Shown: positions 9,017 to 59,067 of the stretch, one piece after another | Numbering within the stretch: the first letter of the stretch is position 1 | How the letters are laid out: every line of letters starts with the position of its first letter | Source of the DNA: Falsiroseomonas oleicola | GTDB lineage: Bacteria > Pseudomonadota > Alphaproteobacteria > Acetobacterales > Acetobacteraceae | Reading direction: 5' to 3' | Length of the DNA stretch: 64,000 bases | Assembly (NCBI RefSeq): GCF_019029495.1 | Contig: NZ_JAERQM010000002.1 | Location: forward strand, 372,001-436,000 | Notes under the pieces: generated by a model | Seen by the model: only the letters and a program-made list of their open reading frames with translations | Databases searched by the model: none | What the model was told of the DNA's origin: nothing | Position numbers and translations under genes: made by a program

Positions 9017-9017
9017 G

Positions 9018-26240: not shown

Positions 26241-26301
26241 CGGCAACTCCGGTCGTGCGGGCAGGTAGGCCCGGGCGGCTGTGGGATGCAAGATGGTGGC
26301 C

Positions 26302-45365: not shown

Positions 45366-45379
45366 ATTATCCTGACATT
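45366..45379 (+). promoter_or_regulatory. Candidate operator, regulator/ligase intergenic region
   Basis: The 14-mer ATTATCCTGACATT matches ATTGTCAGGACATT upstream of the ThDP-enzyme gene at 11 of 14 positions, in the same orientation. The centre is a TNTC-N2-GACA near-palindrome, a plausible site for a dimeric GntR-family repressor. It lies between the divergent ligase and regulator genes, so it could control both. Confidence 0.45.
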
Positions 45380-45473
45380 TAACCATGTCGTTGCGGCCGC
45401 CTGTCAACCATCTTCCCCCCATGTTGCGGCGCAGCTAATCTCGACCACAGGATACGACAGGAGTCTGTGGTCC

Positions 45474-46331
45474 GTGAGCTCTCCCGCCCGACGCAACCCG
45501 TCCGCGATGCCGGCGCCCGCCGCCGCGCCGCCAACCCCGTCGCCGGGCAGTCGGGGTACGGCGCGCGCTTTCGTGCTGGGTCGCGTCGCGCCGTTGAATC
45601 CCGCCCATGCCATGCCGCTCTACATGCAGCTTGCCGAACGTTTCGTAGCCCTGGTGTCGCAGGGACAGGATGCGCTGGTGGGGCAGTCGCTGCCGACCGA
45701 AAGCGAATGCATGGCGCATTTCGGCATCAGCCGGCCAACCGTGCGCCAGGCCATGGCGCATCTGGCGAATCTCGGCCTCATCACCCGTGGTCGCGGCCGC
45801 GGCACCTTCGTCGCGCCGCGCCGTCTCGACCATGACCTCAGCCTGGCCTTCGAGGATGAGGCGCGCAACGCGCGCAAACGTGTTTCCTTCCAGGTGCTGG
45901 ACCGCCGCACCGTGCTGGCCCCCGCAACGGTGCGCGCGGCGCTCGACCTGCCCGCCGGGGCGGAGGTGGAGATGGTGGAGCGGTTGCGGTTGCTGGATGG
46001 CGAGGTCTTCGGCCATGAGCTGCGCTACCTGCCGACCGCCATCGCCCGCCATGTGACGGCGCGCATGCTGGAGCGCCAGGCGGTGAACACGCTGCTGCGC
46101 GCGGCGGTGGGGGAGGCGCCGAAGCGCATGCGCCTGGTTGTCCGCAGCGTGCCGGCGGATACGCGCATCGCCCGCCTGCTCGGCGTGAAGCGCGGCATGC
46201 CGCTGCTGGAAAGCGAGCATGTCTACCGGCTTGCCTCGGGCGCGCCGGTGCTGTGCGGCTTCGTGCGCTTCCACGGCGACCGCTTCCAGTTCATCGCGGA
46301 GGCCGAGATCCGCAGCGAGGCGCAGCTCTGA
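45474..46331 (+). CDS. GntR-family regulator with UTRA ligand domain (HutC subfamily)
   Basis: A 285-residue repressor-type regulator. The winged helix-turn-helix (about residues 40-110) includes PLYMQLAERFVALV, LPTESECMAHFGISRPTVRQAM and GLITRGRGRGTFV. The UTRA effector-binding domain follows (about 125-280), with PAGAEVEMVERLRLLDGEVFGHELRYL and MPLLESEHVYRLASGAPV. Start: GTG at 45474 is preceded by AGGAG 10 bases upstream and is preferred over ATG 45507. It probably controls the ThDP/molybdenum-hydroxylase operon downstream and perhaps the divergent ligase operon, through the 14-base motif found in both control regions. Confidence 0.88.
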   Translation: MSSPARRNPSAMPAPAAAPPTPSPGSRGTARAFVLGRVAPLNPAHAMPLYMQLAERFVALVSQGQDALVGQSLPTESECMAHFGISRPTVRQAMAHLANLGLITRGRGRGTFVAPRRLDHDLSLAFEDEARNARKRVSFQVLDRRTVLAPATVRAALDLPAGAEVEMVERLRLLDGEVFGHELRYLPTAIARHVTARMLERQAVNTLLRAAVGEAPKRMRLVVRSVPADTRIARLLGVKRGMPLLESEHVYRLASGAPVLCGFVRFHGDRFQFIAEAEIRSEAQL

Positions 46332-46366
46332 TCCCGCCTGCGCCGCCTGCCTGACATCATCGCCCC

Positions 46367-46397
46367 TTGACGCCGCCGCCCTGCGCCGTCCTATTGT
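46367..46397 (+). promoter_or_regulatory. Candidate promoter of the ThDP/hydroxylase operon
   Basis: TTGACG (46367-46372), 19 bases, TATTGT (46392-46397). The spacing is on the long side and the -10 matches consensus at 4 of 6 positions. The -10 overlaps the candidate operator, as expected for repression. Weak evidence on its own. Confidence 0.35.
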
Positions 46398-46406
46398 CAG
46401 GACATT
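46393..46406 (+). promoter_or_regulatory. Candidate operator upstream of the ThDP-enzyme gene
   Basis: ATTGTCAGGACATT contains the perfect palindrome TGTC-AG-GACA (46395-46404), 24 bases before the ATG. It shares 11 of 14 bases with the site at 45366-45379. The heptamer CTGACAT of that site recurs at 46351-46357, a possible extra half-site. Confidence 0.5.
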
Positions 46407-46430
46407 CACGCAACAGGCGCGGGACAGGGC

Positions 46431-48248
46431 ATGCCGCCGGACAGCAGGATACCGAATGCGCTGCCGAATGACGGGCCGGGGGCGATCGACCGCCCGGCGC
46501 CGCTGACCCAGCCGGAGACGGCCTGGGGCAGCGATGCTGTGGCCGACATGCTGCGCGCGCTGGGCGTGCCCTATGTGCCGCTGAACCCGGGGGCGTCGTT
46601 CCGCGGGCTGCATGACAGCCTGGTCAACCACCTGGGCAACCGCGACCCCCAGATGCTGCTCTGCCTGCATGAGGAACATGCGGTGTCCATCGCGCATGGC
46701 TGGGCGAAGGTGACGGGCAACCCGCTGGCGGTGGTGCTGCACAGCAATGTCGGGCTGATGCATGGCAGCATGGCGATCTTCAACGCCTGGTGCGACCGCG
46801 TGCCGATGATCGTGCTGGGCGCCACCGGCCCGGTGGATGCGGCGCGGCGGCGGCCCTGGATCGACTGGATCCACACCGCGCAGGACCAGGGCGCGCTGGT
46901 GCGCAATTTCTGCAAATGGGACGACCAGCCGGCCTCCGTGCCCGCCGCCGTCGAGTCCCTGCTGCGCGCCAACCAGATCGCGACGACCGCGCCGCAGGGG
47001 CCGGTCTATATCAACCTCGACGTTTCCTTGCAGGAGGAAGCGGCGCCGGCGCCGCTGGTGGTGCCGCCCGTCGCCCGCTACCGCGCGCCGGAATCGCCGG
47101 TGCCGTCCCCGAAGCTGGTTGCGGAAGCCGCGGCGCTGCTGCGGGGCGCGCAGCGGCCCGTGATCCTGATGGGCCGTGTCTCCCGCAACCAGGACGACTG
47201 GGACCGGCGCGTAGCCCTGGCGGAAAGGCTGGGCGCGACCGTGGTGACGGACCTGAAGGCCGGCGCCGCCTTCCCCAGCACCCATCCGCTGCACGGCCCG
47301 CCACCGAGCGGCTTCCTGACGCCCGCCAATGCCGCCGTGCTGCGGGACGCCGATGTGATCCTGGCGCTGGACTGCATCGACCTGGCCGGCACCTGCAAGC
47401 TGGTCTGGGACGGGCAGCCGCCGCCGGCGAAGATCATTCGGGCCTCGGTGGACCAGTTGATCCACAATGCCTGGTCGATGGACTACCAGGGCCTGCCGCC
47501 GGCCGATGTCTATCTGCTCTGTGAGCCGGATGCCGCGGTCGCGGCGCTGCTCGATGCCCTGGCCGATCTTTCGGCGCGCGCGCTGCCGGCGGCCGTCGCA
47601 CGCCCCTGGCCGGCGCCGACGGCGGACAATGAGATCGGCCTGCCAGAGCTGGCCAGCGCCCTGCGCGCCGCGCTGGGGGAGACACCGACGACGCTGGTGC
47701 GCGTCACCATCTCCTGGCCCGGCACGCTGTGGGATTTCGGTGGGCCGCTGGATTTCCTCGGCGGCGATGGCGGGGCGGGGCTGGGCTCCGGGCCGGGGCT
47801 GGCCATCGGCGCGGCGCTGGCCCTGCGGGGCAGCGGGCGGGTGCCGGTGGCGGTGCTGGGCGATGGCGACTTCATGATGGGCGCGACGGCGCTGTGGACC
47901 GCCGCGCGTTACCGCATTCCCGGGCTGATCGTGGTTGCCAACAACCGTTCCAATTTCAATGACGAGCTGCACCAGGAACGCGTGGCGCTGACGCGCGGCC
48001 GGCCGGTGGAAAACCGTAGCATCGGCCAGGCGATCGCCGGGCCGGATATCGACATCGCCGCGCTGGTGCGCGCGCAGGGCGCCGTGGGGCTCGGCCCGGT
48101 GAGCGATCCGGCGGCGCTGGAGGGCGTGTTCCGGGACGCGCTGGCACAGGTGGCGGAAGGCCATTTCGTCGTCGTCGATGTGCGCATCCGCCCGGGCTAC
48201 GAGGTCGCCACCGCCAGCGGCATGATGCAGCGCGGCGCCAAGGCATGA
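46431..48248 (+). CDS. ThDP-dependent decarboxylase/acetolactate synthase-like enzyme
   Basis: A 605-residue three-domain thiamine-diphosphate enzyme. LHEEHAVSIAHGWA holds the activating glutamate (E81 by alignment with benzoylformate decarboxylase). The ThDP motif GDG (477-479) ... NN (504-505) has the normal spacing. SWPGTLWDFGGPLDFLGGDGGAGLGSGPG precedes it. The group includes benzoylformate decarboxylase, oxalyl-CoA decarboxylase and acetolactate synthase; the family cannot give the substrate. It heads the operon, with a 4-base overlap into the first FAD subunit. A 2-oxoacid decarboxylase making an aldehyde that the hydroxylases oxidise is one possible scheme. Confidence 0.85.
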   Translation: MPPDSRIPNALPNDGPGAIDRPAPLTQPETAWGSDAVADMLRALGVPYVPLNPGASFRGLHDSLVNHLGNRDPQMLLCLHEEHAVSIAHGWAKVTGNPLAVVLHSNVGLMHGSMAIFNAWCDRVPMIVLGATGPVDAARRRPWIDWIHTAQDQGALVRNFCKWDDQPASVPAAVESLLRANQIATTAPQGPVYINLDVSLQEEAAPAPLVVPPVARYRAPESPVPSPKLVAEAAALLRGAQRPVILMGRVSRNQDDWDRRVALAERLGATVVTDLKAGAAFPSTHPLHGPPPSGFLTPANAAVLRDADVILALDCIDLAGTCKLVWDGQPPPAKIIRASVDQLIHNAWSMDYQGLPPADVYLLCEPDAAVAALLDALADLSARALPAAVARPWPAPTADNEIGLPELASALRAALGETPTTLVRVTISWPGTLWDFGGPLDFLGGDGGAGLGSGPGLAIGAALALRGSGRVPVAVLGDGDFMMGATALWTAARYRIPGLIVVANNRSNFNDELHQERVALTRGRPVENRSIGQAIAGPDIDIAALVRAQGAVGLGPVSDPAALEGVFRDALAQVAEGHFVVVDVRIRPGYEVATASGMMQRGAKA

Positions 48249-49096
48249 AGCCCGCGCCCTTCGACTGGCACGCGCCCACCACGCTGGCGGAGGCCGCTTC
48301 CCTGCTGGCGCGGCTGGCGCCGGAGGATGGACGCGTGCTGGCCGGCGGGCAGAGCCTGCTGCCGGCGATGGCGTTGCGCGTGGCGCGGCCGCCGCATCTT
48401 GTGGACATCAACCGCGTCGCCGGCCTGGACGTTCTGGCGGTGGAGGGCGGGTTGCTGCGCATCGGCGCGGTGGTGCGCCATGTGGCCTTCGAGAAGCCGG
48501 TCGCGCCGGGGCCGCTGGGCGCCCTGCTGGCGGAGGTGGTGCGCCACATCGCCCATTGGCCGATCCGCCAGCGCGGCACCTTCTGTGGCAGCCTGTGCCA
48601 TGCCGATCCCGCCGCCGAATGGCCGCTGGTGGCGGTGGTGCTCGAGGCGGTGATGCTGGCGCATTCGCTGCGTGGCGACCGGCGCATCGCGGCAGTGGAT
48701 TTTCTGCGCGGGTTGCTGGACACGGCGCTGGCACCGGATGAACTGCTGCGCGGCGTCGAGATTCCATTGCTGCCGCAGGATGCGTGCTGGGGCTTTGTCG
48801 AGGTCAGCCGCCGCGCCGGCGACTTCGCCCAGGCCATGGCACTGGTGGTGCTGCGCCTGGACGCGCAGGGGCGCATTGTGACGCCGCGCGTGGGGATTGG
48901 CGGGGTGGAGGCGGTGCCGCGCCGCCTGGCGGTCGTTGAAGCCGTGTTGGAAGGCCAGACGCCCTCCGCCGCGCTATTCGCCGCGGCGGCGGAGGCCGCG
49001 GCCGGGGCAGTCGATCCGATGGAGGATGCGGCGTATCGCCGCGCCTTGACCCGCACCGTGACGTTGCGCGCGCTGCATCAGGCCTGCCCGGCATGA
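48245..49096 (+). CDS. Molybdenum hydroxylase FAD subunit, set 1
   Basis: A 283-residue CoxM-type FAD subunit. The motifs are LAGGQSLLPAMALRVARPPHLVDIN and RQRGTFCGSLCHADPAAEWPL; the second deviates from the common TIGGS form with TFCGS. The C-terminal domain is complete (RRAGDFAQAMALVVLRL, GIGGVEAVPRR). Overlaps by 4 bases on both sides show it is translated in series with the ThDP enzyme and the iron-sulfur subunit. It belongs with the S and L subunits that follow. Confidence 0.9.
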   Translation: MKPAPFDWHAPTTLAEAASLLARLAPEDGRVLAGGQSLLPAMALRVARPPHLVDINRVAGLDVLAVEGGLLRIGAVVRHVAFEKPVAPGPLGALLAEVVRHIAHWPIRQRGTFCGSLCHADPAAEWPLVAVVLEAVMLAHSLRGDRRIAAVDFLRGLLDTALAPDELLRGVEIPLLPQDACWGFVEVSRRAGDFAQAMALVVLRLDAQGRIVTPRVGIGGVEAVPRRLAVVEAVLEGQTPSAALFAAAAEAAAGAVDPMEDAAYRRALTRTVTLRALHQACPA

Positions 49097-49563
49097 AGGA
49101 CCATGCCCTGACCCTGACGGTGAATGGCGCGGCCCATCGCATCACCGTCCCCGCGCGCCGCAGCCTGGCCGATGCGCTGCGCGAGGATTGCGGGCTGACC
49201 GGAACACATCTGGGTTGCGAGCATGGCGTCTGCGGTGCCTGCACCGTGCTGGTGGATGGCGCGCCGATCCGTGCCTGTCTGATGCTCGCGGTGCAGGCGG
49301 AGGGCGCGGAAATCCGCACCGTGGAGGGACTGGCCTCCGGCGGCACGCTGAACCCCTTGCAACAGGCCTTCACCGACCACCACGCGCTGCAATGCGGTTT
49401 CTGCACGCCGGGCTTCCTGATGCTCGCCACCGCGATGCTGGAGGAGAATCCGGCGATGGAGGAGGCGGAGATGGTGGACCGGCTTTCCGCGAACCTCTGC
49501 CGCTGCACCGGCTACACCAATATCCTGAGGGCGGTTCAGGCCGTCGCGGCGGCGCGGCGATGA
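49093..49563 (+). CDS. Molybdenum hydroxylase [2Fe-2S] subunit, set 1
   Basis: A 156-residue CoxS-type subunit with the two cluster sites CEHGVCGACTVLVDGAPIRAC and CGFCTPGF ... NLCRCTGY. The sequence is close to that of the set-2 subunit at 52717, especially RRSLADALREDCGLTGTHLGCEHG, suggesting that the two sets arose by duplication or by joint recruitment from one subfamily. ATGA overlaps at both ends. Confidence 0.93.
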   Translation: MKDHALTLTVNGAAHRITVPARRSLADALREDCGLTGTHLGCEHGVCGACTVLVDGAPIRACLMLAVQAEGAEIRTVEGLASGGTLNPLQQAFTDHHALQCGFCTPGFLMLATAMLEENPAMEEAEMVDRLSANLCRCTGYTNILRAVQAVAAARR

Positions 49564-51860
49564 GCGTCTTCGGGCAAAGCGTGATGCGGCTGGAGGATGC
49601 GCCGCTGCTGCGCGGCGAGGGCGCCTTCGCGGCCGATATCGACTTCCCTCGCCAGATCCATATGCGCGTGGTGCGGGCGGAAATGGCGCATGCGCGGTTG
49701 GTCTCGGTCGATGTCACGCCGGCGCTCGATCTACCGGGCGTGATCGCGGCCTGGTCGGCCGCGGACGTGGCGGAGGTGCCGCCGATTCCCTTCCGCGCCA
49801 CCAAGGTGCGCGGGCTGGAACCCTATTGCCAGCCGATCCTCGCCCAGGGCCGCGTGCGCTATGTAGGCGAGCCGGTGGCGGTGATCTTTGCCGAGGATGC
49901 GGCGGTGGCGGAGGATGCCGCCGACCTCGTTCTGGTGGAGCTGGAGGAACTGCCGGCGCTGCTGGACGCCGCGGCCGAGCCCACTGATTTCGACGCGACG
50001 CGGAACACTGAACCCACCATCGTCCGCAAATCCTATGGCGAGCTCGACGCTGCCTTTCGTGACGCGCATGTGGTGGTGGCGCTGGACCTCGCCATCGGGC
50101 GGCATTCCGGCGTGCCGATGGAAACGCGCGGCGCCATCGCCCGCTACGATGCGGCGCAGGATGTGCTGGAACTGCATGGTACGGCGAAGAAGCAGCATTG
50201 GAACCGCGACGAGATCGCCCGCCTGCTCGGCCGGGCGCCGTCCTCCGTGCATCTCTTCGAGGGCCATGTCGGCGGTGGCTTCGGTGTGCGGGGGGAGCTG
50301 TATCCCGAGGACCTGTTGGTATGCCTCGCGGCGCTGCGTCTGCGCCGGCCGGTGAAGTGGATCGAGGACCGGCGGGAACATCTGGTCGCGACGAATCATT
50401 CGCGGGAACAGCGGCACCGGATTCGCGCGGCGGTGGATGCGGAGGGGCGCATCCTTGCCATCGACAATGTCTTCTTCCACGACCAGGGCGCCTATATCCG
50501 AACCCATGGCGCGCGGGTGGCGGATATGTCCGCCGGGCTGCTGCTCGGCCCGTATCGCGTGCCGGCCTATCGTGCCACCGGCCATTTTCGCCTGACCAAC
50601 AAGACGCCCGCGGCGACCTACCGTTCCCCCGGCCGCTTCGAAGGCAGCTTTGTGCGGGAACGGCTGATGGATGCCATCGCTGCACGCTGCGGCTTGGACC
50701 GTGTTGAGGTGCGGCGACGCAATTTTGTCGATGTGTCGGAGATGCCCTATGCGCGGCCACTGGATGCGCTGGGCACGGATGTGGTGCTGGATTCCGGCGA
50801 CTATGCGCTGCTGCTGGACAAGGCGCTGGCACGTTTCGGATGGGATGCGCGGGTGGCCGATGTGGCGCGGCGGCGCGCGGCTGGCGAGTCCGTCGGGCTC
50901 GGGCTGGGCGTATTCGTGGAGAAAAGCGGGCTCGGTCCTTCGGACGGCGTGCGCATGACGGTGGATGCGACCGGTGCGGTGGAGCTGGTGACGGGCGCGG
51001 CTTCGGTCGGGCAGGGGGTGGAGACGGCGCTGGCGCAGATCGCGGCGGCGGCGCTCGGTGTGGATTACCGGCGTGTGCGCGTGGTGCGCGGTCGCACGGA
51101 TCGCATCGAGTTCGGCAGCGGCGCCCATGCCTCCCGCGTCACCGTCATGTCCGGCTCCGCGACGCATCAGGCGGGGCTGGCGTTGGCGGCGCTGGCGAAG
51201 CAGACGGCGGCGGCGTTGTTGCAGACGCCGGAAGATGCGCTGGAGATTGTCGATGGCGTGGTGCGCCGTGTTGATACGCCGGAGGGTGCCTCCGTCACGC
51301 TGGGCGAAGTCGCGCGCGCCCTGGCGCCAGGAACAAAGCTGTCGCGCGACCGTGCGACGCCGGGGCTGACGGTGGAGAGTTGGTTCCACAGCGATCACAT
51401 GGCCTATCCCTATGGCGTGCATCTGGCGCAGGTGGCGCTGGATCGTGGTACCGGGCAGGTGAAGGTGGAGCATTACCTGGTGGGTTATGATGTCGGCCGC
51501 GCGGTGAATCCGATGCTGGTCGAAGGCCAGATCGCCGGCGGCTTTGCGCAGGGTCTCGGCGGCGCGCTCTATGAGGAATTCCGCTACGACGAACGCGGCC
51601 AGCCGCTCTCCACCACCTTCGCGGATTACCTGATGCCGACCATCGCGGAGATGCCGCCGCTGGACATCCTGGTGACGGAGGATGCGCCGAGCCCGCTGAA
51701 CCCGATCGGCGTGAAGGGCGCGGGGGAGGGTGGCACCAACGCCGTCGGCGCCGCCATCGCCTCCGCCGTCGATGATGCGCTGGGTGGTCGCGGCCAGGTC
51801 ACGCAGCTTCCGATCATGCCGCGCGACGTGCTGCGCTTCCTGGCGGAGGGTGCGGCATGA
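49560..51860 (+). CDS. Molybdenum hydroxylase large subunit, set 1
   Basis: A 766-residue molybdopterin subunit. MSVFGQSVMRLEDAPLLRGEGAFAADI is a normal start. GGGFGVRGELYPED and ATYRSPGRFEGSFVRERLMDAIA are cofactor contacts, and GVKGAGEGGTNAVGAA carries the catalytic glutamate. TYRSPGR replaces the AYxCSFR loop of CO dehydrogenase, so it is not a CO-oxidising enzyme. It overlaps the set-2 FAD gene by 4 bases, so both sets are on one transcript. The chemistry is probably hydroxylation of an N-heterocycle or oxidation of an aldehyde. Confidence 0.92.
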   Translation: MSVFGQSVMRLEDAPLLRGEGAFAADIDFPRQIHMRVVRAEMAHARLVSVDVTPALDLPGVIAAWSAADVAEVPPIPFRATKVRGLEPYCQPILAQGRVRYVGEPVAVIFAEDAAVAEDAADLVLVELEELPALLDAAAEPTDFDATRNTEPTIVRKSYGELDAAFRDAHVVVALDLAIGRHSGVPMETRGAIARYDAAQDVLELHGTAKKQHWNRDEIARLLGRAPSSVHLFEGHVGGGFGVRGELYPEDLLVCLAALRLRRPVKWIEDRREHLVATNHSREQRHRIRAAVDAEGRILAIDNVFFHDQGAYIRTHGARVADMSAGLLLGPYRVPAYRATGHFRLTNKTPAATYRSPGRFEGSFVRERLMDAIAARCGLDRVEVRRRNFVDVSEMPYARPLDALGTDVVLDSGDYALLLDKALARFGWDARVADVARRRAAGESVGLGLGVFVEKSGLGPSDGVRMTVDATGAVELVTGAASVGQGVETALAQIAAAALGVDYRRVRVVRGRTDRIEFGSGAHASRVTVMSGSATHQAGLALAALAKQTAAALLQTPEDALEIVDGVVRRVDTPEGASVTLGEVARALAPGTKLSRDRATPGLTVESWFHSDHMAYPYGVHLAQVALDRGTGQVKVEHYLVGYDVGRAVNPMLVEGQIAGGFAQGLGGALYEEFRYDERGQPLSTTFADYLMPTIAEMPPLDILVTEDAPSPLNPIGVKGAGEGGTNAVGAAIASAVDDALGGRGQVTQLPIMPRDVLRFLAEGAA

Positions 51861-52720
51861 AGGCGCCGGCCTTCGAATATCACGATCCGACGACGCTGGC
51901 GGAGGCGATCGCCCTGCTCTGTCGGCTGGAGAATGCGCGGCCGCTGGCCGGCGGGCAGTCGCTGATGCCGATGCTGAACATGCGCTTCGTACAGCCGGAC
52001 CATGTGGTCGATCTCAACCGCATCGCCGAGCTATCGGGCATTCGCGTGCTGCCCGATGGCGCGCTGGAGATCGGCGCGATGACGCGGCAGCGCGACATCG
52101 AACGTGATGCGCGCGTCGCCCAGGCCTGCCCGCTGATGGTGGAGGCGCTGGCGCAGGTCGGCCATAGGCAGACGCGCAATCGCGGCACCATCGGCGGATC
52201 GCTCTGCCACATGGACCCGGCGGCGGAACTGCCGCTGGTCTGCGCGGCGGTGGATGCGGTCGTGCGGATCGCCGGGCCGGGCGGCGAAAGGGAGATTCCC
52301 TTCGCCGAATTTCCGCTGGGCTACATGACTCCCGCGGTGGGGCCTGACGAGTTGCTGGTCGGTCTGCATGTGCCGGCGGCGCCGAAGGGGCAGGGGCATG
52401 CCTTCCTGGAATTCGCACGTCGGCACGGCGACTTCGCCATCGTCGCCGTGGCGGTGCTGCTGGACCCCGGGCCGGATGGGCGCGTGGCGCGCGCCTCCGT
52501 CGCGCTCGGCGGTGTCGGCCCGGCGCCACTGCGGCTCGCGGAGGCGGAGGCGCTGCTGCGCGGCACGGCGGTGGAGGACGACGCCATCGCCCGCGCCCTG
52601 GCCACCACAGCATCGCTCGATCCGATGGAGGATGCGCTGGTGCCCGGCTGGTATCGCCGCCACCTGGCCGGCGTGCTGCTCGGCCGCGCGCTGGGCATCG
52701 CCCGGGAGCGCATGGCATGA
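51857..52720 (+). CDS. Molybdenum hydroxylase FAD subunit, set 2
   Basis: A 287-residue CoxM-type subunit, the most canonical in the window: LAGGQSLMPMLNMRFVQPDHVVDLNRI, RNRGTIGGSLCHMDPAAELPL, then FARRHGDFAIVAVAVLLDPG and ASVALGGVGPAPLRLAEAEALLRG. The C-terminal helix ends YRRHLAGVLLGRAL. It begins in the last codon of set-1 large subunit and ends in the first codon of its own iron-sulfur subunit. Confidence 0.93.
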   Translation: MKAPAFEYHDPTTLAEAIALLCRLENARPLAGGQSLMPMLNMRFVQPDHVVDLNRIAELSGIRVLPDGALEIGAMTRQRDIERDARVAQACPLMVEALAQVGHRQTRNRGTIGGSLCHMDPAAELPLVCAAVDAVVRIAGPGGEREIPFAEFPLGYMTPAVGPDELLVGLHVPAAPKGQGHAFLEFARRHGDFAIVAVAVLLDPGPDGRVARASVALGGVGPAPLRLAEAEALLRGTAVEDDAIARALATTASLDPMEDALVPGWYRRHLAGVLLGRALGIARERMA

Positions 52721-53202
52721 GCGAGCGGCGGATCACGCTGGCGGTCAACGGCCAGCGCCACGACATCACCGTGCCGGTGCGCCGCAGCCTGGCCGATGCG
52801 CTGCGCCAGGATTGCGGGCTGACCGGCACGCATCTGGGCTGCGAGCATGGCGTCTGCGGTGCCTGCACCGTGTTGGTCGATGGCCGTTCCGCCCGCGCCT
52901 GCCTGATGCTGGCGGTGCAGGCCGAAAATCTGGCCATCACCACCGTGGAAGGGTTGGCGCCGGACGCAGCGATGCTCCATCCCTTGCAGCAGGCTTTTGC
53001 CAACAACCACGCGCTGCAATGCGGCTTCTGCACGCCGGGCATGCTGACCACGCTGGTGGAGCTGCTGGCCGAGAACCCTTCGCCGAGTGCGGCGGAGGTT
53101 CGCGTCGCCATCTCCGGCAACCTCTGCCGCTGCACGGGCTATGAGACGATCGTCGCTGCGACACTGGAAGCCGCCGCCGTGATGCGGGGGGAGGCGGCAT
53201 GA
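52717..53202 (+). CDS. Molybdenum hydroxylase [2Fe-2S] subunit, set 2
   Basis: A 161-residue CoxS-type subunit with CEHGVCGACTVLVDGRSARAC and CGFCTPGM ... NLCRCTGYETI. All eight cysteines are present. Its first 55 residues are very close to the set-1 subunit and much less close to the subunit at 29303. Coupled by 4-base overlaps to the FAD and large subunits. Confidence 0.93.
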   Translation: MSERRITLAVNGQRHDITVPVRRSLADALRQDCGLTGTHLGCEHGVCGACTVLVDGRSARACLMLAVQAENLAITTVEGLAPDAAMLHPLQQAFANNHALQCGFCTPGMLTTLVELLAENPSPSAAEVRVAISGNLCRCTGYETIVAATLEAAAVMRGEAA

Positions 53203-55532
53203 CGCGGATCGTCGGCCGTGACGTGAAGCGCATCGAGGATCCCGCGCTTCTGCGTGGGCGGGGCCGCTTCGTCGATGACATCGCGCCGCCCGGCCTGCTG
53301 CACGTCGCATTCCTGCGCAGCCCGCATGCCCATGCTGCAATCCTGTCCGTCGATTGCAGCGCGGCCCGCGCCATGCCCGGTGTTCATGCCGTGCTGAGCT
53401 ATGCGGATATCGCCCCGCTGCTGGCGGAGCCGCGCCTGCGCGTGGCCCTGCCGAGCCCCGCCTACCGCCAGACGCTGGACCGCCCGATCCTCGCGATGGA
53501 TGAGGTGGTGCATGTCGGCGAGCCCGTGGCCATTGTCGTCGCGACGGATCGCGCCATCGCCGAGGACGCCGCCGCGTTGATCGAGGTGGAGTATGACCTG
53601 CTCGATCCGGTAGCCGATGCGGTGGCGGCGCTGGAGCCCGATGCGCCGCGCGCGCATCGCACGGCGCCGCACAATCTGCTCGCTGAATTCACCCTGGCCT
53701 ATGGCGATGTCGACGCCGCCTTCGCCGCCGCGCCGCATGTGCTGCGCGAAAGCCTGGATCAGCATCGCGGTGGCAGCCATTCCATGGAATGTCGCGGTTG
53801 CGTTGCGATTCCCGATGCGGTGGAGGACCGGCTGACGCTGTGGTCTTCCACCCAGACGCCCCATGTCGCGCGCCGCATGCTCTGCGACATGCTCGGCCTG
53901 GCGGAAGACCGTATCCGCGTCGCGACCCCCGATGTCGGCGGCGGCTTTGGCCCAAAACTGGTCTTCTATCCGGAGGATGCGGCGGTGGCCGTCGCCGCGC
54001 GGCTGCTGAAGTGCCCCGTCAAATGGATCGAGGACCGGCGCGAACATTTCGTCGCCACCACGCAGGAACGCGACCAGCGCTGGGATGTGGAGATCGCCTT
54101 CGACGATACGGGCCGCATCCTCGGAGTGCGCGGCGAGGTGATTCACGACCACGGCGCCTATACCGCACGCGGCATCAACGTCGCCTACGGCGCCGTCTCC
54201 GCCATGCCGCTGGCCTATGTCGTGCCGGCCTATGCCATGCGTTGCCGATCCGCCGTCACCAACAAGGTGCCGGTCACGCCGGTGCGCGGCGCGGGGCAGC
54301 CGCAGGGCGTCTTCGCGATGGAGCGCTTGCTGGACGCGGCGGCGCGCAAGCTGGGGCTGGATCGCGCGGAGATTCGCCGCCGCAATCTCGTGCCCGGCGA
54401 TGCCATGCCCTATGCGACGCCGCTGCGTACCCGCGGCGGGATGCAGGTTGTGCTCGACAGCGGCGACTATCCGCGCTGCCTGCAGGCGGCACTGGATCGC
54501 GCGGAATGGGATGGCTTCGCGGCACGTCAGGCGGCGGCGCGGGCGCAGGGGCGTTATCTCGGCATCGGTCTCGCGAATTATGTCGAGGGCACGGGGCGCG
54601 GGCCCTACGAACATGTCTCGGTCCGCATCGAGGCCTCCGGCCGCATCTTCGTCGCCACGGGTGCGGCAGCGATGGGGCAGTCCACGCACACCATGCTGGC
54701 GCAGATCGTCGCCGAACAACTCGGCTTCGACATGGCGAATATCGAGGTGGTGGCCGGCGACACCGCCGCCGCACCACTCGGCCTTGGTGGCTTCAACAGC
54801 CGGCAGGCGGTGCTGGCCGGCACCTCCGCCCATGTCGCGGCGCTGAAGGTGCGGGAACGCGTGCTGCGCGTGGCGGCGACGCTGCTGGAAGCCGCGGAGG
54901 CCGATCTGGAGATCGAAGGCCGCGCCGTGCAGGTGAAGGGCGTGCCCGCCATGCGCGTGACCTTGGCGGAAGTTGCGCGCGCCGCCGCCGGCCTGCCGGG
55001 CTTCAGCATTCCGGGCGGTGCCGGCCCGGGCCTCGCGGCCTCGGAGGAAGTGGTCATCGACCCGATGAGCTACGCCAATGGCAGTTGCGTGGCGGAGGTG
55101 GAGGTGGATGAGGCCACCGGCGCCGTCACCCTCCGCCGCATCAGCTTCGTGCATGATTGCGGCCGTGCCTTGCATCCGCGCATCGTCGATGGCCAGGTGC
55201 TCGGCGGCATCGCGCATGGCATCGGCAATGCGCTGTATGAATGGATGGGCTATGACGAGCAGGCGCAGCCCGTCACCACCACCCTGGCGGAATATCTGCT
55301 GGTGACCTCCACCGAGATGCCGGCGGAGATCTCCATCGGGCATATCGAAAGCCCCACGCCGTTGAACCCTCTGGGCATCAAGGGTGTCGGCGAATCCGGC
55401 GTCATTCCCGTGGCGGCGGCCATCGCCTCCGCCATCGAGGATGCGCTGTCGCCCTTCAACGTCCACATCACGCGCGTCCCGGTGATGCCGCAGCATCTGG
55501 TCGCGCAGATTTCGCCGGAGGCGGTGCGATGA
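53199..55532 (+). CDS. Molybdenum hydroxylase large subunit, set 2
   Basis: A 777-residue molybdopterin subunit. RIVGRDVKRIEDPALLRGRGRFVDDI opens the protein. GGGFGPKLVFYPED, PVTPVRGAGQPQGVFAMERLLDAAA (a VRGAGQP loop, as in quinoline/isoquinoline- and aldehyde-type enzymes rather than CO dehydrogenase) and GIKGVGESGVIPVAAAIA with the catalytic glutamate are present. The different substrate loop from set 1 (TYRSPGR) suggests the two enzymes act on different intermediates. It overlaps the CoxG gene by 4 bases. Confidence 0.92.
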   Translation: MTRIVGRDVKRIEDPALLRGRGRFVDDIAPPGLLHVAFLRSPHAHAAILSVDCSAARAMPGVHAVLSYADIAPLLAEPRLRVALPSPAYRQTLDRPILAMDEVVHVGEPVAIVVATDRAIAEDAAALIEVEYDLLDPVADAVAALEPDAPRAHRTAPHNLLAEFTLAYGDVDAAFAAAPHVLRESLDQHRGGSHSMECRGCVAIPDAVEDRLTLWSSTQTPHVARRMLCDMLGLAEDRIRVATPDVGGGFGPKLVFYPEDAAVAVAARLLKCPVKWIEDRREHFVATTQERDQRWDVEIAFDDTGRILGVRGEVIHDHGAYTARGINVAYGAVSAMPLAYVVPAYAMRCRSAVTNKVPVTPVRGAGQPQGVFAMERLLDAAARKLGLDRAEIRRRNLVPGDAMPYATPLRTRGGMQVVLDSGDYPRCLQAALDRAEWDGFAARQAAARAQGRYLGIGLANYVEGTGRGPYEHVSVRIEASGRIFVATGAAAMGQSTHTMLAQIVAEQLGFDMANIEVVAGDTAAAPLGLGGFNSRQAVLAGTSAHVAALKVRERVLRVAATLLEAAEADLEIEGRAVQVKGVPAMRVTLAEVARAAAGLPGFSIPGGAGPGLAASEEVVIDPMSYANGSCVAEVEVDEATGAVTLRRISFVHDCGRALHPRIVDGQVLGGIAHGIGNALYEWMGYDEQAQPVTTTLAEYLLVTSTEMPAEISIGHIESPTPLNPLGIKGVGESGVIPVAAAIASAIEDALSPFNVHITRVPVMPQHLVAQISPEAVR

Positions 55533-56107
55533 AATTCACCAATCACTTCGAAGTGCCGCTGCCACCGGATGAGGCCTGGGCGCTGCTGCTGGATGTGCAG
55601 CGCATCGCGCCCTGCGTGCCCGGTGCCGAACTGACGGAGGTGATCGACGAGCGCAGCTTCAAGGGCCGCGTCTCCGTCAAGCTCGGCCCGGTCGCGCTGA
55701 CCTTCGCCGGCACCGCGCGTTTCGAGACCATCGACGAGGCCGCGCGCAGCGCGACGGTGAAGGCACAGGGCACGGATGCGAAGGGCCGCGGCGGTGCCAA
55801 TGCGGTTGCCACTTTCGCACTGTCGCCCATCGAAACCGGCACGCGCGTGGACATCGCCACTGACCTGAACCTCTCCGGCTCCGTCGCGCAATATGGCCGT
55901 GGCGCCGGCATGATCCAGGAAGTCGCCTCGCAGATCATCCGGCAATTCGCCGAGGCCCTGCGCGCCGATATCGCCCGCCGCAGCCCGGCACCCGCCGCCG
56001 CGGATGCACCACCCCCGCCGCCACCACCACCCGCCGCCCCCATCGGTGGCTTCGGCCTGCTCTGGCGCGCCTTCCTCGCCTGGCTGCGCCGCGCGACGGG
56101 GCGCTGA
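55529..56107 (+). CDS. CoxG-like SRPBCC protein
   Basis: A 192-residue CO-dehydrogenase subunit G (CoxG) family protein of the START/SRPBCC superfamily. MKFTNHFEVPLPPDEAWALLLDVQRIAPCVPGAEL and the YGRGAGMIQEVASQIIRQFAEAL helix are typical. A Pro/Ala linker leads to a hydrophobic, basic C-terminal helix (GGFGLLWRAFLAWLRRATGR) that probably tethers it to the membrane. CoxG recruits CO dehydrogenase to the membrane in known systems; here it probably does so for the set-2 or both hydroxylases, linking them to the quinone pool. Confidence 0.88.
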   Translation: MKFTNHFEVPLPPDEAWALLLDVQRIAPCVPGAELTEVIDERSFKGRVSVKLGPVALTFAGTARFETIDEAARSATVKAQGTDAKGRGGANAVATFALSPIETGTRVDIATDLNLSGSVAQYGRGAGMIQEVASQIIRQFAEALRADIARRSPAPAAADAPPPPPPPPAAPIGGFGLLWRAFLAWLRRATGR

Positions 56108-56109
56108 GC

Positions 56110-57099
56110 ATGAAGCGCCTCACCCTCAGCCTGTCCTGCCCCGCCTATGATCGCACCCGGGCACTGTTCGACGGGCGGGTGAGCATCGAGGGCTGCGACA
56201 TCATCCCCGTGGCGATGTCGCCGGAAGAAGCCTTCCACCGCGCCTTCCGCCACCAGGAATTCGACATCTCCGAACTCTCGATGTCGAGCACCATGGTGCA
56301 GATCGCCGAGGGCCGTTGCGCCTATGTGCCGATCCCGGTCTTCCCCTCCCGACTGTTTCGTCATTCCGCCATCTACATCCGCGCCGATCGTGGCATCGCG
56401 CGGCCGGAGGATCTGCGCGGCCGCATCGTCGGCGTGCCCGAATACCAGATGACCGCGGCGCTCTGGTTGCGCGGCATCCTCCAGGACGAATATGGCGTCG
56501 CGCCTGCCGAGATGCGTTGGCGCAGCGGCGGTTTGGAAGAGTCGGGTCGCGGCCAGGTGGTCGCGTTGAACCTGCCGACCGATGTCGAGTTGCAGGCGAT
56601 TGGCGCCGAGGAAACCCTCTCCGCCCTGCTCGACGAAGGTCGCATCGACGCGCTGCTGACCGCCCGCGCCCCCTCCTGCTTCGGCCGCAACCCGAACGTC
56701 GTGCGGCTGTTCCCCGATTATCGCGCGGCCGAGGAAGACTATTTCCGCCGCACCGGCATCTTCCCGATCATGCATCTGGTCGGCATCCGTCGCAGCCTGG
56801 TCGAGCAATTCCCCTGGCTGCCGGTCAATGTCTTCATGGCCTTCGAACGCGCGAAGCAGCTCTGCTACACGGACCTCGCGAAGATCGGCCATCTGTTCAC
56901 CACGCTGCCCTGGGCCGTGGAAGAATTGGCGCGCACCCGCGCGTTGATGGGAGAGGATTTCTGGGCCTACGGCGTGCACAAGAACACGCGGGTGATCCAG
57001 GCGATGGCACGCTACGCGGCGGAACAGGGACTGACCCGGCGACACCTGTCGGTGGAGGACCTGTTTCCCGCATCGGTCATCGACCTCGCCAAAGTCTGA
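56110..57099 (+). CDS. 4,5-dihydroxyphthalate decarboxylase-like / periplasmic-binding-fold protein
   Basis: A 329-residue protein of the group that contains 4,5-dihydroxyphthalate decarboxylase (Pht5), which has a type-II periplasmic-binding fold. Typical blocks are EEAFHRAFRHQEFDISELSMSSTMV, PIPVFPSRLFRHSAIYI, GRIVGVPEYQMTAALWLRG and FPIMHLVGIRRSLVEQFPWLPVNVF. It has no signal peptide, so it is cytoplasmic, which favours an enzyme over a transport receptor. Two bases after the CoxG stop, in the same operon. It would remove a carboxylate from a hydroxylated aromatic ring if it keeps the Pht5 function. Confidence 0.8.
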   Translation: MKRLTLSLSCPAYDRTRALFDGRVSIEGCDIIPVAMSPEEAFHRAFRHQEFDISELSMSSTMVQIAEGRCAYVPIPVFPSRLFRHSAIYIRADRGIARPEDLRGRIVGVPEYQMTAALWLRGILQDEYGVAPAEMRWRSGGLEESGRGQVVALNLPTDVELQAIGAEETLSALLDEGRIDALLTARAPSCFGRNPNVVRLFPDYRAAEEDYFRRTGIFPIMHLVGIRRSLVEQFPWLPVNVFMAFERAKQLCYTDLAKIGHLFTTLPWAVEELARTRALMGEDFWAYGVHKNTRVIQAMARYAAEQGLTRRHLSVEDLFPASVIDLAKV

Positions 57100-57131
57100 C
57101 GGCATCTGAACCATCGTCTGGGGGCTTCAAC

Positions 57132-58106
57132 ATGACCGCACCGAACATCACACGTGCCGCATTCCTGTCCGGCGCCGCCGCGCTGGCCTTCGCCGGTGGC
57201 CGCAGCGCCCAGGCGCAGGGACGACCGCTGCGCATCGTACTGCCCTACGCGCCCGGCGGCGTGGTGGACACGCTGGGCCGCGTGCTGGCGCAGGGCATGA
57301 CGGATGCCATGGGCGTGCCCGTGGTCGCCGACAACCGCCCGGGCGCCGGCGGCATGATCGGCTCCGACCACGTCGCGAAAGCCACGCCGGATGGCACCAC
57401 CGCGCTGGTGATGGACCCGGCCATCATCATCAACCCCTCGCTGCAGGCCAGCGTGCCCTACGACGTCTTCCGCGACCTCAAGCCCGTCTCCATCTTCAGC
57501 TCCTCCCCGCTGGTCTGCGTCGTCTCGCCGACCCTGCCGGTGACCACACTGATGGAACTCGTGGAATACGGCCGCGCGCATCGTGGTGAGCTCAGCTACG
57601 CCTCCGCCGGCGTCGGCACCACGCCGCATCTGGCGGGCGAGATGCTGAACCAGCGCACGGGCATCGAGGCGACGCATATCCCCTATCGCGGCATCGCCAC
57701 CTCCTTCGCCGATATCATGTCCGGCAAGGTCCACTTCGCCTTCAGCAGCATCGCCGGCGCGCGTGGCCTGGTGCTGGATGGGCGCATGCGCGGCCTGGCC
57801 ACCACCGGCGCCGCCCGCCCACCCGCGCTGCCCGACCTGCCCACCGCCGTGGAAGCCGGCCTGCCGAACTTCGTCATCGACCTCTGGCTCGGCGTCTTCG
57901 TGCCCAGCGCGACACCGGACGCCACCATCGCCACCATGCACCGCGCCATCCAGGCGGCACTCGCCAAGCCCGAGACCGCGGCCGCCTTCCTGCGCGCCGG
58001 CGCGCAAGTCCGCCACACCTCGCCCGCCGAGGCCGCCGAGATCCTGCGCACCGAGCACGCGATGTGGCGGGAGCTGATCACCACCGCCAAGATCACCCTG
58101 GGCTGA
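57132..58106 (+). CDS. Bug/TctC-family periplasmic binding protein
   Basis: A 324-residue receptor with signal peptide ending GGRSAQAQG. Family blocks: LRIVLPYAPGGVVDTLGRVLAQG, VVADNRPGAGGMIGSDHVAKATPDG, IPYRGIATSFADIMSGKVHFAFSS. It follows the decarboxylase-like gene by 32 bases and is likely the uptake receptor for the pathway substrate. The VVADN variant of the usual VVENR block is notable. Confidence 0.9.
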   Translation: MTAPNITRAAFLSGAAALAFAGGRSAQAQGRPLRIVLPYAPGGVVDTLGRVLAQGMTDAMGVPVVADNRPGAGGMIGSDHVAKATPDGTTALVMDPAIIINPSLQASVPYDVFRDLKPVSIFSSSPLVCVVSPTLPVTTLMELVEYGRAHRGELSYASAGVGTTPHLAGEMLNQRTGIEATHIPYRGIATSFADIMSGKVHFAFSSIAGARGLVLDGRMRGLATTGAARPPALPDLPTAVEAGLPNFVIDLWLGVFVPSATPDATIATMHRAIQAALAKPETAAAFLRAGAQVRHTSPAEAAEILRTEHAMWRELITTAKITLG

Positions 58107-58116
58107 GGGCCGCACC

Positions 58117-59067
58117 ATGACCCTCACACGCCGCGCCACCCTGGCGCTGCCCTTCCTCGCCGCGCCGGCACTTGCCCAGGCGCGGCCGGTCCGCCTGCTG
58201 GTGGGCTTCGCCCCCGGCGGGGCGGCGGATACCATCGCCCGGCTGGTCAGCGCCCGCATGGGCGAACATCTCGGCCAGACCGTCGTCGTGGAAAACCGCA
58301 GCGGCGCCAGCGGCACCATCGCCGCCGCACAGGTCGCGCAATCCGCGCCCGATGGCACATCCCTGCTCTTCGCCACGCTGACCCACGCGACCAACCCCTT
58401 CCTGTTCCAGGGCCTGCCCTTCGACTACGCCACCGCCTTCGCCCCGGTCAGCCAGGTGGTGATCTGGCCGCAGATCCTGGCGGTGAAGAACGACTTCCCC
58501 GCCCAGTCCTTCGCCGAATTCCTGGCCCTGGCGCGTGCCCGCCCCGCCACCATCAGCTACGGCACCCCCGGCAACGCCACCGCCCAACACCTGATCGGCG
58601 AAATGCTGCAACGCCAGGCCGATATCCGCCTGGTCCACGTGCCCTATCGCGGCGGCGCCGACGCCGCGCGCGACCTCTCGGCCGGCGTCATCGACGCGGC
58701 CTTCATGACCACCTCCACCGCCTTGCCCATCCTCTCCGGCAACCGCGCGCGCCTGCTGGCCGCCGCCACCACCACCCGCCTGCGCGCCTACCCAAACACC
58801 GCCACCATCGCCGAATCCGGCATCCCCGGCTTCGAACTCAACGACTGGTGCGCCATCTTCGCCCCCGCCGGGACCGCCACAGCAACCCTGACCCGAACCC
58901 ACGCCGCCCTGACCCACGCTTTGGCGAACCCCGACGTGCAAACCCGCCTGCGCGACCTCAGCACCGAACCCGTCGGCAGCACCCCCGAAGCCTTCACCCA
59001 ACACCTGGCCCGCGAATCCACCCGCCTCGGCACCCTGATCCGGGACGCGAATATCCGGATCGGGTGA
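58117..59067 (+). CDS. Bug/TctC-family periplasmic binding protein
   Basis: A 316-residue receptor with signal peptide MTLTRRATLALPFLAAPALAQA. Blocks: VRLLVGFAPGGAADTIARLV, VVVENRSGASGTIAAAQVA, VHVPYRGGADAARDLSAG. It lies 10 bases after the preceding Bug gene and ends the operon just before the second multi-hairpin repeat. Third positions shift to strongly C-rich, G-poor codons over the last 200 bases. Confidence 0.9.
   Translation: MTLTRRATLALPFLAAPALAQARPVRLLVGFAPGGAADTIARLVSARMGEHLGQTVVVENRSGASGTIAAAQVAQSAPDGTSLLFATLTHATNPFLFQGLPFDYATAFAPVSQVVIWPQILAVKNDFPAQSFAEFLALARARPATISYGTPGNATAQHLIGEMLQRQADIRLVHVPYRGGADAARDLSAGVIDAAFMTTSTALPILSGNRARLLAAATTTRLRAYPNTATIAESGIPGFELNDWCAIFAPAGTATATLTRTHAALTHALANPDVQTRLRDLSTEPVGSTPEAFTQHLARESTRLGTLIRDANIRIG

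Follow-up and report, generated by a model that had tools for sequence, protein, structure and literature searches.

A Falsiroseomonas oleicola gene cluster with two molybdenum hydroxylases and a Pht5-family decarboxylase that may degrade a pyridine carboxylic acid via a citrazinate-like product to tricarballylate

The locus lies in a 64,000-nucleotide stretch of the 5.6 Mb genome of Falsiroseomonas oleicola (assembly GCF_019029495.1, contig NZ_JAERQM010000002.1, positions 372,001 to 436,000 of the forward strand), referred to here as the window. It contains a plus-strand run of twelve genes encoding a GntR/UTRA regulator, a thiamine diphosphate (ThDP)-dependent enzyme, two molybdenum hydroxylases (numbered 1 and 2, each with an FAD (M), an iron–sulfur (S), and a molybdenum (L) subunit), a CoxG-family protein, a Pht5-family decarboxylase, and two TctC/Bug solute-binding proteins (Table 1). 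All twelve genes of the initial annotation were recovered by translation and Pfam, with the Pht5-like protein recognized by a structure match. The Pfam scan covered 40 of the 48 called window genes, and matches called by Pfam were above the curated cut-offs. Seven of the 11 junctions are 4-base overlaps, and the others have spacings of +2 (CoxG/Pht5), +32 (Pht5/Bug1), +10 (Bug1/Bug2), and +99 (GntR/ThDP). The regulator gene probably does not begin as early as the initially assigned 45366; the GTG at 45573 (252 aa) is its likely start, and the corresponding protein is equally long in F. selenitidurans BU-1, the closest named relative found (hereafter the sister species), whose ThDP enzyme is 84% identical.

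The operon annotated at 45366–59067 is real, but it is only part of a system that extends past both ends, being the middle of a larger catabolic cluster of approximately 42.7–60.2 kb that perhaps begins at 36.1 kb. Outside the annotated span are a minus-strand CoA ligase/reductase operon, divergent from gntR, and a cyclic-imidase-like NodB gene, which comes after Bug2. The initial annotation did not include these genes or the link to tricarballylate dehydrogenase. Other genomes and loci are denoted below by our own handles (G and L numbers).

Table 1. Features of the cluster and its surroundings (positions in the window; percentages are protein identities).
Feature	Start	End	Strand	Basis
AtzE-family amidohydrolase, possible pathway amidase, weakly linked	32891	34285	-	NCBIfam AtzE, 678 against cut-off 461
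Branched-chain-type ABC transporter	36123	40698	+	Pfam Peripla_BP_6, two BPD_transp_2, ABC_tran twice; binding protein 36123-37229, fused permease 37246-39117, ATPases 39114-39983 and 39976-40698
Alpha/beta hydrolase (thioesterase or other role)	40718	41542	+	Pfam Abhydrolase_1; 82% in sister species
D-glutamate-cyclase-like protein, third gene of minus-strand operon	41529	42662	-	Pfam GLUCM-like_C; 91% in sister species
MDR reductase (NADPH:quinone oxidoreductase / acryloyl-CoA reductase type)	42677	43657	-	Pfam ADH_N, ADH_zinc_N
Acyl-CoA ligase	43654	45309	-	Pfam AMP-binding, AMP-binding_C
Candidate GntR operator	45368	45377	-	TGTCAGGATA; between ligase operon and gntR
GntR/UTRA regulator	45573	46331	+	Pfam GntR, UTRA; 85% in sister species, 54% in G568 cluster
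Candidate GntR operator	46395	46404	+	TGTCAGGACA; upstream of ThDP gene
ThDP-dependent enzyme, benzoylformate-decarboxylase-like	46431	48248	+	Pfam TPP_enzyme N/M/C
Hydroxylase 1 FAD subunit (M1)	48245	49096	+	Pfam FAD_binding_5, CO_deh_flav_C
Hydroxylase 1 2x[2Fe-2S] subunit (S1)	49093	49563	+	Pfam Fer2, Fer2_2
Hydroxylase 1 molybdenum subunit (L1), 6-hydroxypseudooxynicotine-dehydrogenase-like	49560	51860	+	Pfam Ald_Xan_dh_C, MoCoBD_1, MoCoBD_2
Hydroxylase 2 FAD subunit (M2)	51857	52720	+	Pfam FAD_binding_5, CO_deh_flav_C
Hydroxylase 2 2x[2Fe-2S] subunit (S2)	52717	53202	+	Pfam Fer2, Fer2_2
Hydroxylase 2 molybdenum subunit (L2)	53199	55532	+	Pfam Ald_Xan_dh_C, MoCoBD_1, MoCoBD_2
CoxG-family protein (hydroxylase accessory)	55529	56107	+	Pfam COXG, 63.5 bits
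Pht5-family decarboxylase	56110	57099	+	9jp7 match; tree clade 99/95; residue comparison
TctC/Bug solute-binding protein (Bug1)	57132	58106	+	Pfam TctC; 76% in sister species
TctC/Bug solute-binding protein (Bug2)	58117	59067	+	Pfam TctC; 77% in sister species
NodB-fold hydrolase, PuuE allantoinase / cyclic-imidase kind	59312	60226	-	Polysacc_deac_1; TIGR03212; 3cl6, 3qbu

Both hydroxylases have the make-up of the xanthine oxidase family, with M, S, and L subunits carrying the Pfam domains and a catalytic-Glu motif. GVKGAGE of L1 and GIKGVGE of L2 align with GxKGxGE of 7dqx and 1t3q, and the L2 motif aligns also with that of 8uem. The two L subunits are 41% identical. Among solved structures, L1 is closest to 6-hydroxypseudooxynicotine dehydrogenase (KDH; 7dqx, E 2e-180), a pyridine-ring hydroxylase, scoring 605 bits against 415 for quinoline 2-oxidoreductase, which agrees with the initial assignment as ring hydroxylases. 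The likeness to KDH has its bounds, as kdhC, to which the annotated relatives of L1 among 11 plasmid records belong, is only 41–42% identical and its neighbors differ; an unannotated Neorhizobium match reached 46%. The substrate class of L2 is less clear because three solved relatives score almost alike (490 for KDH, 485 for quinoline 2-oxidoreductase, and 473 for a CoxL). CO dehydrogenase was rejected: the loops read TYRSPGR and PVRGAGQ, not AYRCSFR, which we take to be the active-site loop of that enzyme, and the TIGR02416 scores were 372 and 506 against a cut-off of 991.

The Pht5-like protein yielded no Pfam match above the cut-off (PF12974, 21.5 against 27 bits) and no NCBIfam match at E 0.001. 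Its residues 1–324 of 329 nevertheless align with residues 21–344 of a solved 4,5-dihydroxyphthalate decarboxylase (9jp7, E 3e-96), and this near full-length homology bears out the decarboxylase family named initially. In a tree of 65 rows, which holds part of the Pht5 paralogues, the protein falls into a 15-row clade (99/95; G473 appears twice) separate from a 26-row phthalate-type clade (100/99). Every row of the former comes from a genome with an L1- or L2-type hydroxylase. The latter includes the genes of L129 and L124, which are located beside genes for phthalate dioxygenase, reductase, and dihydrodiol dehydrogenase; no phthalate genes were found beside the window gene. When 14 sequences of the window clade were compared with the 26 of the phthalate type, 44 columns were invariant in both, two were fully switched (P185A and F268W), and the phthalate-type R139 and K150 were not kept. 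As the clades share invariant columns and differ in these positions, the window clade probably represents the same kind of enzyme as Pht5 with a different substrate.

Pht5 relatives also occur in other settings. In Variovorax WDL1 (L286), genes for a Pht5-family protein, a Rieske oxygenase, a VanB-type reductase, and a Gfo/Idh dehydrogenase adjoin a 2,5-dihydroxypyridine dioxygenase gene, a layout that gives a further hint of pyridine dicarboxylates as possible substrates of Pht5 relatives. On plasmids of Roseomonas marmotae and R. haemaphysalidis (L285 and L287), a two-subunit molybdenum hydroxylase precedes the Pht5-family gene in the order TctC-TctC-S-L-Pht5. A UbiD-family decarboxylase gene is located beside L1-/L2-type hydroxylase genes and a distant Pht5-family gene (35–38%) in L181, L180, L194, L177, L174, and L262. 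Of 80 Pht5 plasmid records, four were opened, and one (Cupriavidus) shows neither a molybdenum hydroxylase nor a Rieske gene.

The initial reading was to be given up if the gene order were conserved nowhere, which is not the case. The sister species keeps the unit and its neighborhood, but without M2-S2-L2-CoxG between L1 and Pht5, and two further genomes, G473 and G010, have M1-S1-L1-M2-S2-L2 arranged as in the window; chance is therefore not the explanation. The possibility that M2-S2-L2-CoxG was inserted in F. oleicola was discarded on account of the order in G473 and G010. Since an L2 gene (72%) and its S and M partners are present on a different contig of the sister species, loss or separation in that species is the better reading.

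L1 was matched in 18 of the 385 class genomes and in 11 of the 200 family genomes, both counts including our own genome. The recurrent L1 neighborhood consists of M1S1L1, M2S2L2, CoxG, Pht5, the CoA ligase, the MDR reductase, and the NodB-type hydrolase, often with an amidase and an XRE regulator. G326, G568, G010 (with Pht5 as an 83-aa fragment), and G473 (where a second contig carries the ligase, reductase, and amidase genes) have the whole set or almost all of it, and the other L1 genomes have parts. Two ring hydroxylases, a CoA ligase, and a reductase occur in one cluster in these four genomes (on two contigs in G473) and in the window. In G326:C9, for example, 250–298 kb holds Pht5, L2, CoA ligase, reductase, CoxG, M1, S1, L1, M2, S2, amidase, NodB, TcuA, and TcuB. 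CoxG was matched (38–64%) in the cluster contigs of G473, G010, G568, G326, G258, G303, G413, G577, G502, and G072.

Gene counts at the ThDP loci and cluster contigs rest on tblastn, as gene calls from a self-trained program were wrong at several GC-rich loci. For co-occurrence, the identity thresholds were 53% (L1) and 56% (ligase) for the class and 56% (ThDP) and 60% (L1) for the family; our own genome (in all tests), G491 (L1 42%), and Pht5 hits outside the tree clade were left out. Among the 384 other class genomes, L1 was present in 16, the Pht5 clade in 12, and both in 11 (P 9e-17); collapsed by genus, the numbers were 11, nine, and eight of 276 (P 2e-12). The ligase was found in four class genomes, all of them L1-positive (P 2e-6). 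A Pht5-clade gene was within 10 kb of an L2-family gene (49–74%) in nine of the 11 class contigs read (that of G573 left out), the other two contigs being 9 and 11 kb long, and it had L1 neighbors in only three of the 11 class genomes with both (G473, G568, and G326). The tighter bond of the Pht5 clade is to L2 rather than to L1.

The minus-strand operon and the NodB gene recur with this set and beyond it. MDR reductases of 55–64% identity are encoded beside the ligase in G010, G473, G568, G258, and G326; the window reductase scored 225 bits with the NCBIfam model PIG3, under its cut-off of 296.8. Solved relatives of the NodB protein are 3cl6 (E 3e-25) and 3qbu (E 6e-11), and its homologs (46–87%) are encoded within approximately 30 kb of L1 in the sister species, G010, G473, G326, G568, G302, G407, and G496. 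Amidases 30–42% identical to the AtzE-family protein occur in the clusters of G326, G473, G568, G258, and G577 and on plasmid pDP3.

Four of 13 plasmid records with ligase matches were opened. Two of them hold the module, and those at 49% and 45% lie in other CoA pathways, as does the one opened of two L2 plasmid records. Plasmid pDP3 of Alicycliphilus denitrificans DP3 encodes CoxG, the ligase (60%), a PaaI thioesterase, the reductase (60%), the NodB hydrolase (51%), an amidase, two three-subunit hydroxylases (36% and 31% identical to L2), a transporter, TcuA, and TcuB. Plasmid pLDW-10 of Arthrobacter crystallopoietes DSM 20117 encodes a GntR regulator, a thioesterase, one three-subunit hydroxylase (31% to L2), the NodB hydrolase (35%), an asparaginase, an SRPBCC protein, the ligase (56%), and the reductase (53%), with tcuA approximately 4 kb before the GntR gene. 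Ligase, reductase, NodB hydrolase, CoxG/SRPBCC, amidase/asparaginase, tcuA, and molybdenum hydroxylase genes are thus common to both plasmids and F. oleicola; unlike here, the thioesterase and tcu genes are nearby on the plasmids. The genes are annotated singly in the records. Pht5, ThDP enzyme, and UbiD had no match at E 1e-3 in the whole of pDP3 or in the 29.6-kb stretch of pLDW-10. As the hydroxylases are at most 36% identical while the ligase, reductase, and NodB protein persist, the entry enzymes are swapped. As deposited, pDP3 (L293) contains a long repeated segment, with many catabolic genes present twice under the same protein accessions.

The tcu genes lie within or beside the cluster in four lineages (G473, G326, Alicycliphilus pDP3, and Arthrobacter pLDW-10). 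The TcuA model NF006130 (cut-off 369) was passed by G473, pDP3 (771), pLDW-10 (551), and our own genome (635), where the gene is on another contig; the pLDW-10 protein misses a second TcuA model (277 against 373). A flavoprotein approximately 38% identical to TcuA is encoded near hydroxylase genes in G568, G413, G577, G302, and G258 (L176, L174, L262, L281, and L171), and it may play a similar part in these genomes, where no TcuA match was seen.

The first enzyme gene of the plus-strand run has a different distribution. The ThDP enzyme shares its TPP N/M/C domain order and active-site Glu and His with benzoylformate decarboxylase (MdlC), its best solved relative (4q9d, E 2.5e-26, alignment ending at residue 505 of 605), and E81, H104, and the GDG...NN motif are invariant in six aligned sequences, the window's included. 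The relation is distant: curated cut-offs were missed (PRK07092, 158 against 493; best model PRK08327, 223 against 456), and the residue aligned with what we take to be Ser26 in benzoylformate decarboxylase numbering is Ala. Among the best 80 of at least 569 confirmed candidates in named genomes (52 loci of at least 15 kb), an aldehyde dehydrogenase (ALDH) gene was present in 27 loci (within 400 bp of the ThDP gene in 21), a Pht5-family gene in 19, a phthalate-type Rieske oxygenase gene in 18, and a molybdenum large subunit gene in 10, with Pht5 and a molybdenum subunit together in one locus, that of the sister species. Eight ThDP regions were opened from 43 plasmid records; four carry a Rieske oxygenase and further phthalate-type genes (in two of these regions with pca genes), and in the remaining four an ALDH gene adjoins or is near the ThDP gene. 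Given these neighbors, the family probably decarboxylates aryl-glyoxylates to aldehydes.

Distant ThDP relatives (37–44%; L042, L023, and L043) directly adjoin a small secreted CxxCH protein, a c-type cytochrome by eye, followed in L042 by a Pht5-family gene. A nadC-like (quinolinate phosphoribosyltransferase family) gene is present in seven of the best 80 loci and stands directly before the ThDP gene in L126, L130, and L097, which are marine Rhodobacterales clusters with phthalate-type genes.

The ALDH, Pht5, and Rieske genes at the ThDP loci and the phthalate-type plasmid regions would suit a carbocyclic pathway, in which 2-carboxybenzoylformate is converted via phthalaldehydate and phthalate to a dihydroxyphthalate that the Pht5 relative decarboxylates. 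We regard this as very unlikely for the window. No gene for a Rieske oxygenase or a dihydrodiol dehydrogenase and no pca gene is among its 40 Pfam-scanned genes, the only part of the genome searched for them, its Pht5 protein is outside the phthalate-type clade, L1 is of the azaarene type, and the links to NodB, ligase, and Tcu would be left unexplained. A phthalate reading was suggested by the ThDP search alone and was set aside, as the hydroxylase neighborhoods point elsewhere.

A second alternative is that a ring aldehyde is the product of the ThDP enzyme and that one of the molybdenum enzymes is an aldehyde oxidoreductase replacing the ALDH of its relatives. The frequent proximity of ALDH and ThDP genes fits this, as do the absence of ALDH from the 40 scanned window genes and the matches of all five scanned hydroxylase subunits to NCBIfam glyceraldehyde dehydrogenase subunit models, although below cut-offs. 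In G303, where ALDH adjoins ThDP, an L2-type hydroxylase is also present. The substitution is nonetheless highly improbable, as both hydroxylases occur together without a nearby ThDP match in G473, G568, and G326 and have better scores to azaarene hydroxylases than to any of the listed aldehyde oxidoreductases.

A 2-oxoacid cleavage was among the steps suggested initially, but the ThDP enzyme as a core step is not supported: the set of hydroxylases, Pht5, ligase, reductase, and imidase-like hydrolase occurs without ThDP, for which G473, G568, and G326 gave no match over the stretches read. In G010, the set (Pht5 as a fragment only) is accompanied by a remote ThDP relative (29%) far off and a ThDP gene (60%) on another contig. 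The ThDP enzyme and the two Bug proteins might even be passengers, co-transcribed and serving another pathway, as members of the ThDP family are widespread in Proteobacteria outside clusters of this kind. We consider this improbable, as the ThDP gene overlaps M1 and is part of a single gene run in two species. At the family level, moreover, it was present in four of the six genomes with L1, compared with 12 of all 199 (P 1e-4). It also stands (46%) beside Pht5, L2, CoxG, and ALDH in G303, a second such assembly, and approximately 5 kb from M1-S1-L1 in G413 (53%). We read the ThDP enzyme as an addition recruited from aryl-glyoxylate/phthalate pathways, which may feed in a side-chain 2-oxoacid.

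From gene families, conservation, co-location, co-occurrence, and clade membership, we infer the reactions and their order. The cluster may well, in our estimate about as probably as otherwise, break down a pyridine carboxylic acid via a citrazinate-like product to tricarballylate. The two M-S-L hydroxylases, served by CoxG, would oxygenate both ring carbons flanking the nitrogen, and the Pht5-family enzyme would remove one of two carboxyl groups standing ortho to each other, by analogy with the action of Pht5 on dihydroxyphthalate, to give 2,6-dihydroxypyridine-4-carboxylate. The CoA ligase would then activate the remaining carboxyl group, and the MDR reductase would saturate the CoA-activated ring to a 2,6-dioxopiperidine, a cyclic imide. 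The NodB/PuuE-type hydrolase would open the imide, an amidase would release ammonia to yield tricarballylate, and TcuA/TcuB, encoded elsewhere in this genome, would convert it to cis-aconitate for the tricarboxylic acid (TCA) cycle. The ThDP enzyme would most likely decarboxylate a ring-glyoxylate precursor.

A pathway of this form has reportedly been described for Mycobacterium sp. INA1 by Kretzer and co-workers in 1993, running from isonicotinate through 2-hydroxyisonicotinate, citrazinate, citrazinyl-CoA, and 2,6-dioxopiperidine-4-carboxylate to tricarballylate. Two molybdenum hydroxylations, a CoA ligase, ring reduction, imide opening, and late tricarballylate would be common to both; the Pht5-family decarboxylase and the ThDP enzyme are additions here. 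Tricarballylate dehydrogenase in the same cluster, as expected of an INA1-type pathway, is found in or beside the cluster in the four relatives named above, but not in F. oleicola. For the imide step, passages of a study on the nicotinate pathway of Aspergillus nidulans (PMC9304392) describe the cyclic imidase HxnM, a relative of PuuE and 3qbu, as opening a hydroxypiperidine-2,6-dione, with the amidase HxnN acting next, the same succession as proposed here. The fungal pathway differs in proceeding via 2,3,6-trihydroxypyridine, and those passages (PMC9304392) mention no CoA ligase or Tcu step. Among the titles listed in our literature search, none links these genes to an isonicotinate/citrazinate route, although one that does may quite possibly be in print in the subscription journals outside the search.

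The cluster looks modular, with a citrazinate-to-tricarballylate core, an L1/L2/Pht5 periphery for an acid with two neighboring carboxyl groups, and the ThDP enzyme for a ring-glyoxylate. As a tentative best guess, which is conceivable though we would not presume it, the substrate would be pyridine-3,4-dicarboxylate (cinchomeronate) together with a ring-glyoxylate precursor, for which the route is so far unassigned. The CoA-dependent core module would then span Alpha- and Betaproteobacteria and Actinomycetota. According to part of a review (PMC13040137), Rhodococcus phthalate 3,4-dioxygenase acts on both quinolinate and cinchomeronate, which shows that o-phthalate and pyridine dicarboxylates are close analogs. 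Quinolinate itself was dropped, as on chemical grounds it does not fit the ligase, imidase, and Tcu links.

The same central module may instead receive another azaarene acid, such as an isonicotinate derivative, nicotinate, or a quinoline/isoquinoline-derived acid. The Pht5 relative would then use some other ortho-substituted intermediate, or the ring would be hydroxylated by just one of the two hydroxylases. In favor of this, KDH, which L1 resembles, acts on a 3-acyl pyridine, the module is combined in pDP3 and Arthrobacter with different hydroxylases and without a Pht5 match, and Bug proteins can bind quinolinate according to part of one source (PMC11452294). Against it, tricarballylate fits best with a carboxyl group at ring position 4, and nicotinate-type rings would not yield it. 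We consider such an alternative entry rather unlikely but worth keeping in view.

Several observations weigh against the proposed route to tricarballylate. Related genomes inflate the co-occurrence P values, even collapsed by genus. Of the 16 L1-positive class genomes, 12 miss the ligase at the threshold and five miss the Pht5 clade; G413 gave no ligase even at E 1e-120, and five other class genomes have a ligase of 46–49% without L1 at the threshold. The low count of Pht5–L1 neighbors points the same way, and G302, G407, and G496 have five to six L2 paralogues each, so nearness to L2 arises more easily by chance. G303 contains ThDP, ALDH, L2, and Pht5 with no L1 and no NodB match, only an 83-aa Pht5 fragment was seen in G010, some clusters have UbiD genes in place of Pht5 or in addition to it, and two of the four genomes of the genus in the family sample have neither ThDP nor L1. 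The NodB protein is not a PuuE allantoinase by TIGR03212 (115 bits, far under the cut-off of 424.6), and no NodB match was obtained in the L1-positive G413, G577, G502, and G019. The nearby amidase gene is 9 kb distant and scores as AtzE, TcuAB is unlinked to the cluster in both our own genome and G010, and no PaaI-type thioesterase was found in F. oleicola or the sister species in a search without a positive control. Finally, with plasmid hydroxylases only 31–36% identical, a shared module is no proof of a shared substrate.

The initial description as a regulated catabolic unit is supported. The pattern TGTCAGGAYA occurs at two sites in the 64 kb, one before each operon, where 0.06 were expected and none of 100 shuffles reached two; as the pattern was picked after the sites were seen, this expectation overstates the rarity. 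The ThDP-side site is within 17 bases identical in the sister species (CCTATTGTCAGGACATT), and the ligase-side site is degenerate there, leaving one exact match. In G568, the pattern was found only with one mismatch, at chance level. GntR is probably the regulator of both divergent operons. In our own genome, only a 37% relative of the XRE regulator from the other clusters is present, on another contig.

Among the flanking genes, the ABC transporter is possibly the uptake system of the cluster. It stays adjacent to the unit in the sister species, and a similar type is near the ligase/reductase genes in G010, G473:C21, and pDP3. The D-glutamate-cyclase-like protein of the ligase operon, which could handle lactams, had no match in the other 30 of 31 contig groups (tblastn E 1e-12, 30% coverage). 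Farther away, a third molybdenum hydroxylase (26293–29749, order L-M-S), whose M subunit (241 aa) has the FAD domain only, without CO_deh_flav_C, neighbors an OYE-type oxidoreductase, a 2-hydroxyacid dehydrogenase, and TctC proteins. Cellulose synthase genes for a BcsAB fusion (1516 aa) and BcsC are present at 4466–12758.

If the proposed route is true, the cluster would provide candidate genes for the majority of steps that lead from a pyridine acid into the TCA cycle and would account for the joint presence of tricarballylate and molybdenum hydroxylase genes on two catabolic plasmids. The family whose members carry the annotation 4,5-dihydroxyphthalate decarboxylase or "ABC transporter substrate-binding protein" would be divided, with a second group that probably acts on azaarenes.

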